A DNA stretch of 64,000 nucleotides from assembly GCA_013540605.1 (NCBI GenBank), contig JABVCK010000029.1:1-64000 (forward strand), read 5' to 3'. Positions 3,542 through 62,259 of the stretch are shown one piece after another; the first letter of the stretch is position 1, and each line of letters starts with the position of its first letter. Under the pieces are notes generated by a model. That model made no database searches. It was given only the letters and a program-made list of their open reading frames with translations, and had not been told where the DNA came from. Both the position numbers and the translations under genes were made by a program. This DNA comes from Bacillota bacterium. Lineage in GTDB: Bacteria > Bacillota > Clostridia > Ch29.

Positions 3542-3781
3542 ATGAACTACTTCAAGGTGCTGGTTTCCTGCGGTCACGTAGGAACTGCTAAGGAAATCAG
3601 TGTTCGAAGGTTTTTTACTGCAGACAATATTGTAGAAGCATTTGAAAGCGGCAACAGGATGCCCAGGGCCAAAAGAAAACAAACCCGTTCAGCTGTTCTA
3701 AGGGTAGAGCCTATTACCGAAAAGGAGTATATCCTGGGGAAATATGAGGAAACAACAAATGAATACCTGTGCATGGACTGA
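3542..3781 (+). CDS. conserved hypothetical small protein
   Basis: 79 residues, with start ATG 3542 preceded by GGAGGTG. It starts MNYFKVLVSCGHVG, has a basic central part (RAKRKQTR) and an acidic C-terminus. The even distribution of charged and hydrophobic residues and the good ribosome site support a real gene. I recognise no catalytic motif or membrane segment. It sits alone between the Nudix-like gene and a GGGGACA repeat. Confidence 0.6.
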   Translation: MNYFKVLVSCGHVGTAKEISVRRFFTADNIVEAFESGNRMPRAKRKQTRSAVLRVEPITEKEYILGKYEETTNEYLCMD

Positions 3782-3797
3782 AATACATAACCAATTT

Positions 3798-3844
3798 GGG
3801 GACATTCCGCGGCAAGGAATACCATCAAATAGCGGTGTGTCCCC
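3798..3844. repeat. short GGGGACA dispersed repeat
   Basis: A 47-bp copy running from GGGGACATTCCGCGG to GCGGTGTGTCCCC. The two ends are imperfect inverted repeats of each other. This is the shortest member of the family that recurs at 5920, 8134 and 57869. Confidence 0.75.
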
Positions 3845-3866: not shown

Positions 3867-4250
3867 ATGAAAAAGATTATGGAAGATATGCTGAAGGAAA
3901 AAGTGTGGGCAGTTGTTGGCGCCTCCAACAACAAAGAAAAATTCGGGTTTAAGGTATTCGAAAGGCTCATGGAAAAAGGTTACCGCGCTTATCCCGTAAA
4001 TCCCGGCTGCGAAGAGATTGAAGGCAAAAAGTGCTATAAGACCCTTTCGGAGATACCTGAGGTTCCCGGCTCGGTAAGCATGGTCATTCCACCACGGGCT
4101 GCAATCGGGGTCATGGAGGAAGCTGCTGTACTTGGCATCAAGAAGATATGGTTCCAACCCGGCGCAGAAAGTGAAGAAGCGATAGAGAAGGCAAAACTGT
4201 TACATTTGGATGTGGTATATGATAATTGTATTCTGGTGGAATTAGGATAG
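3867..4250 (+). CDS. CoA-binding domain protein (YccU-like)
   Basis: 127-residue single-domain protein with the CoA_binding_2 Rossmann fold. The N-terminus VWAVVGASNNKEKFGF is the characteristic nucleotide/CoA-binding loop. GYRAYPVNPG, followed by segments containing MVIPPRAA and KKIWFQPGAES, matches the YccU family. ATG at 3867 has GGAGGTAG upstream. The physiological role of these small stand-alone proteins is not settled. It is monocistronic, with a hairpin at the stop codon and a GGGGACA repeat just upstream. Confidence 0.85.
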   Translation: MKKIMEDMLKEKVWAVVGASNNKEKFGFKVFERLMEKGYRAYPVNPGCEEIEGKKCYKTLSEIPEVPGSVSMVIPPRAAIGVMEEAAVLGIKKIWFQPGAESEEAIEKAKLLHLDVVYDNCILVELG

Positions 4251-4269
4251 GGACGGCAGTCCCTATTTT
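4248..4269. terminator. bidirectional terminator
   Basis: TAGGGAC-GGCA-GTCCCTA followed by TTTTTT, lying between the convergent CoA-binding gene and the TauE pair and overlapping their stop codons. Confidence 0.75.
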
Positions 4270-4610
4270 TTCTTATACAGCATCTCATATCCGCCCATAA
4301 TAAATAAAAATACGGCAAAAAGCCTGGAAAGGATTTCGCCGGGGAGTCTTACGGCAAAGGCGGAACCTATATAAGCTCCCACAAACCCTGAAAATATTAA
4401 TATTAATGCGTGTTCTGTGTCAAGGTTGTTATTCCTGTAATGGATTATTAGAGCAATCGCAGCAACAGGGATGAAGCTAATTAGATTGACACTCTGGGCA
4501 ACGTGCTGTTTCGTCCCTGCAAAGAAGATCAACGCAGGTATAAGAATAGCTCCTCCTCCAATGCCCATCGCACTGATGATGCCGGTAAGCAATCCGATTA
4601 GAATAATCAT
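4263..4610 (-). CDS. TauE/SafE family half-transporter (second gene of pair)
   Basis: 115-residue very hydrophobic protein with about four membrane segments and the TauE/SafE signature GLLTGIISAMGIGGGAILIPAL near the N-terminus (here split by this description at MGIGGGAI). Usual TauE exporters have about 250 residues made of two such repeats; this gene encodes one repeat. It overlaps the upstream half by one base (TAATG), so the two are translationally coupled and probably assemble as a heterodimer. The family exports sulfite, sulfoacetate or related small anions; the substrate here is unknown. Confidence 0.8.
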   Translation of the reverse strand: MIILIGLLTGIISAMGIGGGAILIPALIFFAGTKQHVAQSVNLISFIPVAAIALIIHYRNNNLDTEHALILIFSGFVGAYIGSAFAVRLPGEILSRLFAVFLFIMGGYEMLYKKK

Positions 4611-4957
4611 TATATCACCATCCTGACAGCAGCGATTATCATAAATAACCCGAATACTTTTCTAAGAATCCATGAGGGGATTCTGTTCAATAGCTTTGCT
4701 CCTATAACACTTCCGGCGATTCCCCCTGATACTACCTTTAGGGTTAACGGCCAGCTTATATAGCTGCTTCTGTAATACACTAACGTACTCAGGATGGTAA
4801 GGGGAAGTATTACGAGTATTGCGGTTGCATGGGCTTTATGTTCTTCCGTGCCCATAATGAATATCATTGAAGGTACTAGTATGGTTCCTCCTCCTGAACC
4901 GAACAAACCGTTGCATAAGCCCGTAATCAGGCCGATCAGAACAAGTTTTACTATCAT
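4610..4957 (-). CDS. TauE/SafE family half-transporter (first gene of pair)
   Basis: 115 residues with the same one-repeat architecture: GLCNGLFGSGGGTILVPS at the N-terminus, then about three further hydrophobic segments. The start at 4957 has AGGAGGACC before it. Its stop codon shares one base with the start of the next gene. Together with the neighbour it has the length of one complete TauE protein, so either a two-gene split is the working form or the pair preserves the pre-fusion state. The membrane location is clear and the substrate is not. Confidence 0.8.
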   Translation of the reverse strand: MIVKLVLIGLITGLCNGLFGSGGGTILVPSMIFIMGTEEHKAHATAILVILPLTILSTLVYYRSSYISWPLTLKVVSGGIAGSVIGAKLLNRIPSWILRKVFGLFMIIAAVRMVI

Positions 4958-5107
4958 TTGGTCCTCCTTGTTTAGTGGAACTACTAATTTAATTTTTCCA
5001 TATATGGTTCATTTATTCGAAGGGGCGAGTGGGTTTACATGGGCATGGGCTTATGCTAATATATTTTTAATACAATACGTTTATTCCTATTGAAAAGGGG
5101 TGGAGAC

Positions 5108-6089: not shown

Positions 6090-6827
6090 ATGTCAGGGCA
6101 TTCTAAATGGGCGAATATTCAGCATAGGAAAAGTAAACAGGATGCTAAGAGAGGGAAAGTTTTCACAAAGCTGGGCAGGGCGATAATGGTAGCAGCCAAG
6201 GAGGGCGGGGGAGACCCTGACTCTAACGCGGCTTTAAGAGATGCCGTTGCCAAGGCGAAGGCTGCCAATATGCCTAACGATACCATTGAGCGGGCTATCA
6301 AAAAAGCGTCCGGTGAGCTTGGAGATGCTGAATACCAGGAGGTTATTTATGAAGGTTACGGACCTGGAGGCGTGGCGGTTATAGTCCAAGCCCTTACCGA
6401 TAACCGCAATAGGACGGCGGGAGATATCCGCCATGCCTTTGATAAAAACGGTGGAAACCTTGGAACAACCGGATGCGTATCCTTTCTATTTGATAAGAAG
6501 GGTCAGATAATAATCGAGAGAGCAGAAGGATTGGACGATGAACAGGTTATGCTTTTGGCCATTGAAGGAGGAGCGCAGGACGTGGAGATTGACGAGGAGG
6601 GATACGAGATTGTTTCATCCCCCGAAGACTTTGGTACTGTCCTGAAGTTTGTTCAGGATAACGGTCTGGAACCGGTTTCCGCCGAGATAGCCATGCTTCC
6701 GCAGACCTATGTCAGTCTGCAGACCGAGGATGAGATAAAGCTTATGAACAGGCTTATAGACATGCTTGAGGATAACGATGACGTGCAGAACGTTTACCAC
6801 AACTGGGATATGCCGGAAGAGAACTAA
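6090..6827 (+). CDS. yebC: YebC/PmpR family protein
   Basis: 245 residues, the usual length of the family. The N-terminus [14 protein letters not shown] and the motif [10 protein letters not shown] are diagnostic. YebC/TACO1 proteins act in translation of difficult (polyproline) stretches, and some have been described as DNA-binding regulators. GGGAGGTCTGG lies before ATG 6090. It stands alone here, not next to ruvC as in many genomes. Confidence 0.95.
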
Positions 6828-6840
6828 AATTGCTTAAGAT

Positions 6841-6890
6841 AAAATTGCTGTGAATAAGAGTTGCAGGAAACTCTTATTCACAGCAATTTT
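6841..6890. terminator. strong bidirectional terminator
   Basis: A perfect 22-bp stem (arms 6841-6862 and 6869-6890) with A-rich and T-rich flanks. It separates the convergent yebC and M20 peptidase genes. Confidence 0.9.
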
Positions 6891-6895
6891 GATTA

Positions 6896-8107
6896 CTACG
6901 CTAGCCCACAGAATTTCATTGCGATCAAGCTGTATGCTTTGAAGCCGTCTATCAGTTCTTCTACGGTTATATATTCACCAGGAGTATGGGAGCGGGATAT
7001 ATCTCCCGGTCCGTATACTACTGTCGGTATCTTTCCATAATAGTTTAATATTGCCGCATCTGTCCATCCCCTGCGGGTTGTCATTTTAGGCTGTGCGCCG
7101 GTAATCAACTCAATCGAATCTTTTACTGCGCTGACAAGGGGATGATCCGGCGAGGTTTCCATGGGTACATGGTCAAACTTTTTCATTAAGCTGGACGGCA
7201 TTCGTCTCATTACCCCTTTGAAACCAGGATATTCCTTTGACAGCTCTTCCAGTATATCCTCATATTCTCTGAGAACCTCCTGCAGGCTTTCCGACGGAAT
7301 GTAACGCCGGTCTATCTGGATAATACATCTATCAGCAACGGTACTCGGCTGCGTACCTCCTTCTATTCTCCCGAAATTCATGACCGAAGGCCCCATAAAT
7401 GGGTGATCCAAGCCTTTTAGGCGCGGGACAACTTTTTCCTGTACCCGGAGTATAAACCTGGCTGCATTGACGATAGCGTTTATTCCTGCGTCCGGTATAC
7501 CTCCATGGGCGGATTTCCCTATTATTTCCACTTCCAGCCATTCCAGCCCCCTGTGGCCTATTGCGTACTCATGATTCGACGGCTCGCCTACGATGGCGCC
7601 ATCCGTTTTAAAGCCTGATGAAATAAGGGTTTCGCTTCCATCACTGTTTGTCTCTTCGGCAAGCACTCCGGTGAAAACCAGGTCTCCCTTAAGTTTTATA
7701 CCTGATCTTTTAAAGGCTAGAATTGTTGAAAGCATTGCAGCAACAGGCCCCTTCATATCTACGGCACCCCGTCCGTATATCCTGTTGCCCTCCATATTGG
7801 CTGCAAATGGTTCAACCGTCATGTTATACGGTGGAACCGTATCAAGGTGCCCGTTAAGGGCAAGGCTATTACCGTTACCTGTACCGGGTAGTTTTACAAT
7901 GATATTTGAGCGCTTATCGTCGACGGGCTGCAGTTCATAATCCAGTTCGTGGACTCTACAAAACCTTACTAATTCTTCTACCACTTCCTGTTCAAGGGAA
8001 GGAACATCCCAGTGGCTTGGAATGGAAATCAACTTTCTTGTTAAAGCAATGATTTCTTCAGTAGAGACAGCATCTTTGATTTCTTTCAACAAAGTTCTTT
8101 CATCCAC
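6896..8107 (-). CDS. M20 family metallopeptidase (ArgE/DapE/carboxypeptidase G2 type)
   Basis: 403-residue zinc-dependent amidohydrolase. The start is GTG 8107, with TGGAGG nine bases upstream; the longer reading to 8143 runs into a repeat. Metal and catalytic motifs are visible in order: GHLDTVPP, YGRGAVDMKG, AEETNSDGS, VGEPSN, then the dimerisation (lid) domain with GKSAHGG, and a C-terminal SHTPGEYI supplying the last metal ligand. The family deacylates N-acyl amino acids or removes C-terminal residues. It lies downstream of a YfcC transporter and a sigma-54 activator, so an amino-acid or N-acyl substrate linked to that module is likely. The exact substrate cannot be read. Confidence 0.85.
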   Translation of the reverse strand: MDERTLLKEIKDAVSTEEIIALTRKLISIPSHWDVPSLEQEVVEELVRFCRVHELDYELQPVDDKRSNIIVKLPGTGNGNSLALNGHLDTVPPYNMTVEPFAANMEGNRIYGRGAVDMKGPVAAMLSTILAFKRSGIKLKGDLVFTGVLAEETNSDGSETLISSGFKTDGAIVGEPSNHEYAIGHRGLEWLEVEIIGKSAHGGIPDAGINAIVNAARFILRVQEKVVPRLKGLDHPFMGPSVMNFGRIEGGTQPSTVADRCIIQIDRRYIPSESLQEVLREYEDILEELSKEYPGFKGVMRRMPSSLMKKFDHVPMETSPDHPLVSAVKDSIELITGAQPKMTTRRGWTDAAILNYYGKIPTVVYGPGDISRSHTPGEYITVEELIDGFKAYSLIAMKFCGLA

Positions 8108-57868: not shown

Positions 57869-58035
57869 GGGGACATTCCGCGGCAAGGAATACATCGGGG
57901 ACATTCCTAGATGCTAGATCATAGATCACAGATCACAGGTGACCGGGTTAGGCCTTTAGGTTTTACCCTATAGCCTTGCCCTGATGTCTGTCATCTGGTC
58001 ACTGATCACTGGCAACTGATAAGCGGTGTGTCCCC
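57869..58035. repeat. GGGGACA dispersed repeat, long form with doubled left end
   Basis: Two GGGGACATTCC left ends (57869 and 57897), heptamers ATCATAG, ATCACAG, ATCACAG, then a central part nearly identical to 5968-6046, ending with GCGGTGTGTCCCC at 58023-58035. The doubled end looks like one copy inserted into or next to a short copy. Confidence 0.8.
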
Positions 58036-58098
58036 TTTCCTGTTTTTTCTCAAAAATATAACATATCTTGTCCTGCGGATTAATATTCATAATATTAG

Positions 58099-58203
58099 GA
58101 GTACTATATGTAGAAGTACTATATGTGCAAAATGCAAAAGGAAAGTAAATAGCAAAGGAAAGTAAATAGCAAAATAGCAAAATAACAAAGGAAAGTAAAT
58201 AGC
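58099..58203 (+). repeat. short tandem repeats before the opine-dehydrogenase promoter
   Basis: AGTACTATATGT occurs twice (58100-58127), then GGAAAGTAAATAGCAAA is repeated three times with interruptions (58140-58203), ending at the promoter. It codes for nothing. An A-rich direct array of this kind could affect promoter strength. Confidence 0.65.
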
Positions 58204-58204
58204 A

Positions 58205-58233
58205 TTGACAGAATTTCAGATTTGTAGTATAAT
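58205..58233 (+). promoter_or_regulatory. consensus sigma-A promoter of the opine-dehydrogenase unit
   Basis: TTGACA (58205-58210), a 17-base spacer, then TATAAT (58228-58233): a perfect match to the consensus. Transcription would start near 58240, leaving a 300-base leader with the conserved block (to about 58350) and a riboswitch. Confidence 0.9.
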
Positions 58234-58371
58234 CTAAAAACAACGTCTGCATGTGGTTTACATATTTTCATTGCATCCCTGGTTTGAATTACATGTCTGG
58301 GTTGCACAAATTTCATCTACAATTCTTCATTGGTATTTATTTAAATCAAAAACCACAAATTCATAGTGTAT

Positions 58372-58418
58372 GGTGATGGAGCTCACCGGAAATGCAATTA
58401 ATTGCTGATGGCTCCTGC
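58372..58418 (+). promoter_or_regulatory. fluoride riboswitch (crcB motif) aptamer
   Basis: The RNA fits the crcB/fluoride aptamer closely. P1 is GGTG/CACC with the 8-base loop ATGGAGCT. An AAA-containing joiner leads to stem GCAAT-TA-ATTGC, then the conserved TGATG, then GGCTCC, which pairs with the P1 loop (GGAGCT) as the pseudoknot, then CTGC where the consensus has CUAC. Downstream, GCTAAC-ATCAA-GTTAGC (58417-58433) overlaps the aptamer end, and CGCAG-AGAATTG-CTGCG-ATTTTG (58452) could be a weak terminator. Known examples activate fluoride exporters (crcB/fluc, eriC-F); no such gene is visible here. Confidence 0.82.
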
Positions 58419-58539
58419 TAACATCAAGTTAGCTTGGGAAAGCGTCTTTTTCGCAGAGAATTGCTGCGATTTTGTTACCGCTCTCCGCATTCTAGTTCTA
58501 TCTTCACATAAAGTAAAAAAATGGAAAAGGAGGGATTGT

Positions 58540-59679
58540 ATGCAGGACTTATTCAGAAATTTCCCGAAATTTGCCGTAGTCGGCGGAGGGAATGGAGGGC
58601 TTGCAACCGCTGGGTATCTGGCCAGCATGGGTTACCACGTGAATCTTTTTAACAGGTCTCCGGATAAAATTCGAGATATTTTGAACAACAAAAAGATAAT
58701 TCTTGAAGGAGCAATACAAGCCGAAGGATGCGTGGATATTGCCACATCGAATATGCAGGAGGCTGTTGAAGATGTTGACATAGTAATGGTTGTGGTTCCG
58801 GCATCCGCCCACCGGCAGATAGCCAGAGAAATGTCACCGTACCTGAAGGACGGCCAGATTGTAATCCTTAACCCGGGGAGAACCGGTGGGGCCCTTGAAT
58901 TCAGGAACACATTGCATGAGACGGGAAACAAATCGAGGATAACCGTAGCGGAAGCACAGACGTTGCTGTATGCTTGCAGGAAGACAGGAAATCAAAGGGT
59001 GAATATTTTCAGTATTAAGGAAAGGGTTGCTATTGCTGCAATACCCGCTACCCGCACACAAAAGATAATAAAGATGCTTTCCCAGGCTTTTCCCCAGTTT
59101 TATTCAGCGAGAAATGTTCTGGAAACCAGCTTTAACAATATAGGAGCAATCTTTCATCCGGCTCCGACGCTGCTCAACGCAGGCCGCATCGAGACGACCG
59201 GGGGGGATTTCGAGTACTACATTGAAGGAATATCCCCAACAGTGGCAAGGATTCTGGAAGAGATGGATTGTGAAAGGATAAGGGTAGCTGAAACACTGGG
59301 TGTGAAAGCAATATCGGCAATAAAGTGGCTAGAACAATCGTATAACGCTGTGGATGAAAGCCTGTACGGAGCAATCCAGAAAACCGTAGCATACAAAGGA
59401 ATAAAGTCGCCGGCGACAGTCAACAACAGGTATATATTCGAAGACGTTCCAGTTAGTTTAGTGCCAATATCTTCAATAGGTAAAATGTTTGGAATACCTA
59501 CACCCACGATAGACTCGATAATACAGCTGGCATGCGCGGCTCAGGATGAGGATTATTGGGAGATCGGCAGGACTGTCGAGACTCTTGGATTATCAGGGAA
59601 ATCCGCCAAAGAGATAAACAGACTGGTTATGGAGGAAGAGATTGACATCATGGATGACTCGGAAGGAGTGGTGGCTTAA
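58540..59679 (+). CDS. NAD/NADP octopine/nopaline dehydrogenase family protein
   Basis: 379 residues from ATG 58540 (AAAAGGAGGG upstream). A reading from 58402 overlaps the riboswitch and is rejected. The N-terminal Rossmann fold has FAVVGGGNGGLATAGYLAS. The C-terminal opine-dehydrogenase domain has IFHPAPTLLNAGRIE with the conserved catalytic His region and EYYIEGISPTVARILEE. Opine dehydrogenases reversibly join an amino acid and a 2-keto acid through an imine. The partner gene overlaps the last base (TAATG), so the two products very likely act together. Control by fluoride is predicted by the leader, not by the enzyme itself. Confidence 0.88.
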   Translation: MQDLFRNFPKFAVVGGGNGGLATAGYLASMGYHVNLFNRSPDKIRDILNNKKIILEGAIQAEGCVDIATSNMQEAVEDVDIVMVVVPASAHRQIAREMSPYLKDGQIVILNPGRTGGALEFRNTLHETGNKSRITVAEAQTLLYACRKTGNQRVNIFSIKERVAIAAIPATRTQKIIKMLSQAFPQFYSARNVLETSFNNIGAIFHPAPTLLNAGRIETTGGDFEYYIEGISPTVARILEEMDCERIRVAETLGVKAISAIKWLEQSYNAVDESLYGAIQKTVAYKGIKSPATVNNRYIFEDVPVSLVPISSIGKMFGIPTPTIDSIIQLACAAQDEDYWEIGRTVETLGLSGKSAKEINRLVMEEEIDIMDDSEGVVA

Positions 59680-61359: not shown

Positions 61360-61394
61360 AAAGCTTCCGAGGTTTAGGCTTCGGGAGCTTTTTG
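61360..61394 (+). terminator. rho-independent terminator
   Basis: AAGCTTCCGAGG pairs with CTTCGGGAGCTT, followed by TTTGTT. It ends the opine-dehydrogenase/B12 operon. The next 230 bases contain no gene. Confidence 0.8.
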
Positions 61395-61628
61395 TTGTTT
61401 ATTACTGCTTTACTACTGTGCTCTCAATGTGGTATGTAGCTTTTCCCTGGATAATATTGTATAATCATATATCCTTAGGATTTTCAATTATAAAGAATTA
61501 AGTAGTTCCCTCTGAAAAACAGGGGCTTTGAGCCTTGAAAAATCAACATCTCAGCAGGATTTTTGCGGTAAAATGTCGAATATATACAATATACAACAAA
61601 TAAGTTAAATCCTGAGAGGTGTTTGCTA

Positions 61629-62259
61629 ATGTTAAGACTGGACTACCCCGAAATCGCAGCTAATCAAATTTCAATGGTTGAACTGCTGCTGCCTCCGGAA
61701 ATATTAAAATTACCGTCGGATCTTGCTAAGGTAGACCAAATCCTTAATGATGAAAGGTTTGAAGAACCTTTTATCGAGAGATTCAATGTGACTATCGGTA
61801 GAGGTTCAGTGCCAATTCGGCCATATATAAGGCTTATGGTGTTAAAGTATTCAAATGAGTGGGGTTACGAAACTCTTGAAAAGAAAGTAAATGATAGTAT
61901 CACTCTCAAGAAATTCTGCCGCATCCCCCTGGATAAACCCGCACCGGATAGTACAACATTGATAAAGCTAAACCAAAAGTACGGTGAAGACGTCATAAAG
62001 GATTTGAATCAAAGCAGGAATAAAGAAAGTAGCCATACCTGCAAAGGGAAAGAAATCCAAAGCCCGGGCGGAACTGGAAAAAAGCCGATGGTTTAAAAGA
62101 CTGGTGCACTGGAGAGCAGGGTCAGAAGCAAAAATCAGTCTTCTCAAACGCAAATACGGGCTTGACCGTAGTCTTTTCCGTGGGTACAGTGGAACAAGCA
62201 CATGGGTAGGTTGGGGTATTTTGACCCATAACCTGTTTAATGCAGTAAAATATGCGTAA
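61629..62259 (+). pseudogene. transposase with internal deletion and frameshift
   Basis: The N-terminal frame (from ATG 61629) has the DUF772-type start of IS1182/IS5-like transposases: LPSDLAKVDQILNDERF, RPYIRLMVLKYSNEWGYETL, KPAPDSTTLIKLNQKYG. After about residue 125 it jumps into another frame that gives the family C-terminus: KKSKARAELEKSRWFKRLVH, WRAGSEAKISLLKRKYGLDR, GTSTWVGWGILTHNLF, ending at TAA 62257-62259. The catalytic middle part (about 200 residues) is missing. It is a dead copy; no inverted repeats were identified. Confidence 0.85.

Follow-up and report, generated by a model that had tools for sequence, protein, structure and literature searches.

The leader of an opine dehydrogenase and B12 operon

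Why does a fluoride riboswitch stand in front of genes for an opine dehydrogenase-family enzyme (ODH) and a B12-dependent mutase-like protein? This question is raised by one operon in the window, by which we mean the whole stretch of 64,000 nucleotides that was analyzed. The explanation we favor, to which we give a probability of about two in three as a whole, is that a transcription-terminating ON switch for fluoride took the place of a c-di-AMP switch and gates an osmolyte-like ODH-B12 operon.

A preliminary description of this DNA had proposed a crcB-type aptamer at 58372-58418, with a stem, a second stem and a GGAGC/GCTCC pseudoknot. A covariance scan with Rfam RF01734 bore this out. The proposed interval is exactly the core of a match that spans the full model (1-64/64; E 5.6e-11 in a search of the 64 kb window) and scores above the family's gathering threshold, as listed in Table 1. 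It is the single fluoride aptamer in the window by this model, and it was recovered again by a genome-wide search and by R1, a model built partly from the window aptamer sequence itself. P1 (58372-58375/58384-58387) and P3 (58394-58397/58402-58405) are both present, and the pseudoknot forms five of five pairs. All five pairs of the pseudoknot survive in 20 of the 21 aptamers parsed despite changes of sequence, for example from GGAGC/GCTCC to GAAGT/ACTTC, and every position that is invariant among the 21 is retained in the window aptamer. By these measures the window aptamer is genuine and, as an RNA, ordinary; what is unusual is its target genes and the contrast with relatives.

The UGC that replaces UAC near the end of the aptamer had suggested drift to a ligand other than fluoride. 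This was rejected as an argument for drift. UGC after the pseudoknot is common, being found in aptamers of several relatives and also in the one that precedes crcB in this genome, and is therefore no sign of another ligand. The odd gene association is the one point left for such drift, which is very improbable given a full-length match of 50.3 bits with all of the invariant positions kept.

Table 1. Features of the window and the other fluoride aptamers of the same genome (window positions unless prefixed C15 or C25)
Feature	Position	Strand	Evidence
Predicted promoter, TTGACA-17-TATAAT	58205..58233	+	12/12 consensus match
Fluoride riboswitch aptamer (RF01734)	58363..58424	+	50.3 bits, gathering 34
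Pseudoknot 5' strand GGAGC	58378..58382	+	complementary to 58411-58415
Pseudoknot 3' strand GCTCC, doubling as terminator stem base	58411..58415	+	sequence; folding
Intrinsic terminator overlapping aptamer 3' end; 12 bp with two bulges, then GUCUUUUU	58411..58451	+	-11.9 kcal/mol
Putative second terminator-like hairpin, then TTTTGTT	58451..58469	+	pattern scan; -7.8 kcal/mol
Ribosome-binding site AAAGGAGGG	58526..58534	+	sequence; 5 nt before ATG 58540
ODH gene (opine dehydrogenase family), 379 aa	58540..59679	+	PF02317 E 3.9e-50
B12-dependent mutase-like gene, 551 aa	59679..61334	+	PF02310 N-terminal B12-binding domain, fused glutamate-mutase-like barrel
Operon terminator, 14-pair stem, T tail, after second gene	61360..61391	+	pattern scan; strong
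Fluoride aptamer	C15:16636-16695	-	49.3 bits
Fluoride aptamer	C15:11467-11529	+	41.0 bits
Fluoride aptamer before two CrcB genes, DUF190, dynamin-like GTPase	C25:203100-203170	-	40.2 bits

The aptamer and the expression platform are mutually exclusive, since the terminator takes up the GCTCC strand of the pseudoknot. Upon folding, all five bases of this strand also pair within the terminator. Only 2 of 200 shuffles reached the stability of the whole stretch to 58470. This is the usual ON design, where the bound ligand keeps the terminator from forming (PMC2864571). When fluoride is absent, GCTCC would pair into the terminator and transcription would stop. With fluoride and Mg2+, GCTCC would be held by GGAGC in the pseudoknot, the terminator would stay unformed and the ODH-B12 operon would be transcribed up to the terminator at 61360. 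Folded without constraints, the leader as a whole does not stand out (z -0.96, an uninformative statistic), and the terminator is imperfect, so the gate may leak. Short direct repeats lie just upstream of the promoter at 58096-58204 (GGAAAGTAAATAGCA three times and TAGGAGTACTATATG twice).

In its aptamer, pseudoknot, overlapping terminator and ON logic, the leader is like the crcB motif RF01734 (Weinberg 2010; PMC2864571, PMC7266159). However, its targets, ODH and the B12 mutase, are absent from the association lists consulted, which name crcB, eriC, antiporters, mutS, formate hydrogen lyase, enolase and pyrophosphatase. The usual known fluoride-response gene downstream, which is a habit of the class rather than a defining feature, is thus not found here.

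The two enzymes

The two downstream genes were identified as an opine dehydrogenase and a cobalamin-binding protein, as the preliminary description had stated. ODH has the Octopine_DH domain of PF02317 together with an N-terminal NAD domain. Its closest solved relative is N-(1-D-carboxylethyl)-L-norvaline dehydrogenase (CENDH; 1bg6, E 1.3e-85), which it resembles over the whole length but from which it differs in being partnered with a B12 mutase gene. The ATG of the latter overlaps the ODH stop codon (TAATG, 59679).

Beyond its N-terminal domain, the B12 protein had no match in Pfam or NCBIfam. For its AlphaFold2 model (pLDDT 89.5, pTM 0.82), the closest PDB fold found by Foldseek was the glutamate mutase E subunit (6h9e/1cb7, probability 1.00; E 3e-16 for 6h9e), and ornithine and lysine aminomutases came next. 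The protein shares with glutamate (methylaspartate) mutase E/S a B12-binding domain and a barrel fold that is nearest MutE. In contrast to that enzyme, it has its B12 domain fused at the N-terminus and Cys for Asp in the DxHxxG motif, and identity is 14-15%. No MutE model matched the protein, and the model of subunit S gave 20.8 bits against a cut-off of 110. Across 25 aligned rows the cobalamin motif is CxHxxG, with H14 and G17 invariant and C12 at least 90% conserved. Going by the modeled fold, the second protein is a B12 mutase with a rearranged domain order.

The fluoride regulon of the same genome

Four fluoride aptamers were found by an RF01734 search of the whole genome, and the one in the window scores highest. 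The three further aptamers mean that a fluoride regulon exists; it is an ordinary one, to which the window operon is an added member. It had been remarked that there is no CrcB in the window. This is true of the window, but the genome does have crcB, under its own fluoride aptamer (Table 1). The two C15 aptamers precede a MutS_V (MutS-like) protein pair and a DUF6062 protein, and mutS is a known target of the crcB motif (PMC2864571).

DUF6062-like genes follow fluoride aptamers both in this genome (L005:6468-6530, 6759-7193) and, as seen by eye only, in another genome of the class (L007), where the gene comes ahead of two CrcB genes. DUF6062-like proteins are likely a fluoride-response family. 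The dynamin-like GTPase of the CrcB operon (L006:6124-7857) has its own fluoride aptamer in the relatives L017, L029 and L031, that of L031 being below the gathering score. Next to the MutS fluoride leader there is a Y1_Tnp transposase (L005:11826-12617).

Relatives carry a c-di-AMP riboswitch at the same place

Among 84,980 species genomes scanned, 398 loci with a relative of the B12 protein were found. Among the best 80 of these 398, which were examined, ODH adjoins the B12 gene in at least 74. By its gene order, then, the ODH-B12 pair is a conserved and widespread module. Besides ODH and B12, no gene that could give a clue to function is common to the window and the relatives' loci. An ATP-grasp gene like D-Ala-D-Ala ligase (Ddl) adjoins ODH-B12 in L060 (5397-6398) and about 11 other relatives, and possibly provides a third step of the pathway.

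The messenger of osmotic stress, c-di-AMP, is the ligand of the riboswitch that most close relatives have in this position. The Rfam scan placed RF00379 (ydaO) just upstream of ODH in 12 of 13 loci from among the closest, the exception being L077, which is without a recognized ODH, and in 6 of 14 in a second, more distant set. A model built from the c-di-AMP riboswitches that Rfam found in these two sets detected one before ODH in 43 of 72 scorable loci; in L071 (of the series L071-L150), for example, the riboswitch is at 3666-3798 and ODH at 3898-5004. The phylum was also sampled independently: the B12 gene was present in 84 of 399 genomes, 80 of which were scored for riboswitches. A c-di-AMP riboswitch was found upstream on the same strand in 37 of the 80, mostly 1.1-1.6 kb before the B12 gene, which is before ODH. 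Two c-di-AMP aptamers were seen upstream of the same operon in L138 (3509-3632 and 3772-3898) and G434 (C37:42548-42937), in close tandem in both, and in G721 (C1:2840663-2843205).

None of the 80 phylum genomes had a fluoride riboswitch within 20 kb upstream of the B12 gene on the same strand, and 36 of them carry one somewhere. No co-located fluoride riboswitch was found in 16 B12-positive genomes of the same class, and the B12 gene was absent from five genomes of the same family that were searched. With the three sets summed, in which a few genomes may be counted twice, a fluoride aptamer before ODH-B12 was seen in 0 of about 175 relatives. Regular expressions (which recover most known aptamers), model R1 and Rfam were all used in looking for a conserved fluoride association in relatives, and none was found. 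The homologous operons examined thus lack the aptamer, an outcome that the preliminary description had named as a refutation. The association, seen in one genome only, is not conserved; this does not make the aptamer itself unreal.

The window leader, for its part, had no match to RF00379, and no c-di-AMP remnant was found in it by Rfam at a low threshold or by model R2 unfiltered. The one c-di-AMP riboswitch elsewhere in the genome (C25:199280-199415) is near an MntP-family gene. RF00379 (ydaO/yuaA) holds the same position before the orthologous operon as the window fluoride switch, but differs from it in fold, in ligand and in sign, being OFF at high c-di-AMP.

These results bear on the suggestion that fluoride controls the pair. 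A genuine aptamer is placed to control ODH-B12, and that much of the suggestion stands, whereas the association with the pair is not shared by relatives. Another possible explanation is that fluoride control is conserved or adaptive for the chemistry of ODH-B12, for example because the substrate or product is an organofluorine compound or because the enzymes relieve the inhibition of central metabolism by fluoride. The pair does lie under a genuine fluoride switch, and fluoride is known to target the metabolic enzymes enolase and formate hydrogen lyase (PMC11139923). We nevertheless consider this explanation improbable, as the relatives use c-di-AMP at the operon instead and the operon is without a dehalogenase-like gene. 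The proposal that the operon releases fluoride fares no better: its genes give no hint of organofluorine chemistry, and the aptamer is missing from homologous operons, which mostly have the c-di-AMP switch.

Osmotic-stress genes are found under c-di-AMP riboswitches, such as that for the osmolyte enzyme lysine 2,3-aminomutase, where the riboswitch is in tandem with a Na+ switch (PMC9337991). By analogy, because a c-di-AMP riboswitch precedes the pair in relatives, ODH-B12 may produce or process an amino-acid derivative of the osmolyte type. The open-access literature yielded no paper on a fluoride or c-di-AMP riboswitch with opine dehydrogenase, though prior notice in riboswitch-association tables is possible, and no description of a c-di-AMP-linked ODH-B12 enzyme module was found in the literature searched.

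Origin of the fluoride leader

A tree of ODH and B12 joined, built after the longest rows were taken out, groups the window with 38 loci that form its sister clade (support of the joint clade 94), and all 38 have the c-di-AMP switch. In a tree of B12 only, the window is inside a group of 40 rows (support 89), where 38 of the 39 others have it. The joined tree with the long rows kept did not resolve the placement of the window. The c-di-AMP switch also occurs outside the window's group, in L094, L105, L139, L146 and L150. These trees do not settle the position of the window, and we can only infer, not prove, that its own ancestor was under c-di-AMP control. The simplest history would be that the c-di-AMP riboswitch of the ancestral operon was replaced by the fluoride leader in the window's lineage.

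The nearest of the 21 other aptamers is the leader of the DUF6062 gene in the same genome (L003, on C15), at 85% identity in the core and 80% over aptamer and terminator. Copying of the window leader within the genome is plausible from this resemblance, which may come partly from the conserved aptamer. Probably a copy of an aptamer-terminator unit already in the genome landed upstream of ODH; the DUF6062 leader is its closest relative. Of the readings in the preliminary description, movement here by rearrangement is thus the favored one, because relatives carry a c-di-AMP riboswitch there and because this genome itself contains the closest aptamer, a paralogue.

The genome has a dispersed repeat of 25 nt, GGGGACATTCCGCGGCAAGGAATAC, with 65 copies at up to 2 mismatches, some in tandem, and 0 in a reversed control. 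One copy is in the window at 57869-57893, about 490 nt upstream of the aptamer, and another sits between the crcB aptamer and crcB. Shortly after the operon comes a truncated ISNCY-type transposase (61623-62096), a sign of nearby rearrangement.

A rearrangement could also have placed the aptamer by chance. The leader would now serve chiefly as a strong promoter followed by a leaky terminator, c-di-AMP repression would have been lifted, and fluoride control would be incidental or decaying. The repeat copies fit this explanation, as do the perfect promoter before the aptamer and the restriction of the association to a single genome. The terminator is also weaker, at -11.9 kcal/mol, than those of two other fluoride leaders of the genome, L003 (-22.5) and another (-15.2). 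On the other hand, decay would be expected of an aptamer without use, but the window aptamer is the best-scoring one in the genome, and all five of its pseudoknot bases are still paired within the terminator. Chance placement without lasting fluoride control is therefore unlikely in our judgment, though worth serious consideration.

Under the replacement of c-di-AMP control by a working fluoride switch, the enzymes, which probably produce or process an osmolyte-like amino-acid derivative, would be induced here as part of the fluoride-stress response. Such control might reflect a need that ionic stresses have in common, habitats that are both salty and rich in fluoride, or just the loss of the earlier control.

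Implications

What is new here is that ODH-B12 is a conserved module and that, in most close relatives, a c-di-AMP (ydaO) riboswitch immediately precedes it. This osmotic-stress-type operon seems to have come under fluoride control in one lineage. We would give even odds to the broader idea of riboswitch exchange, in which an orthologous osmotic-stress-type operon passes from c-di-AMP OFF to fluoride ON control, fluoride and osmotic-stress responses can share effectors, and a leader can move between regulons as a unit.

If our explanation is true, the fluoride regulon gains an unexpected metabolic target, and the locus would be a clear natural case of orthologous genes switching riboswitch class. 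The comparison with relatives is a strong clue to an uncharacterized enzyme pair. Widespread and often controlled by c-di-AMP, the ODH-B12 module is a candidate new osmolyte pathway of the Firmicutes.
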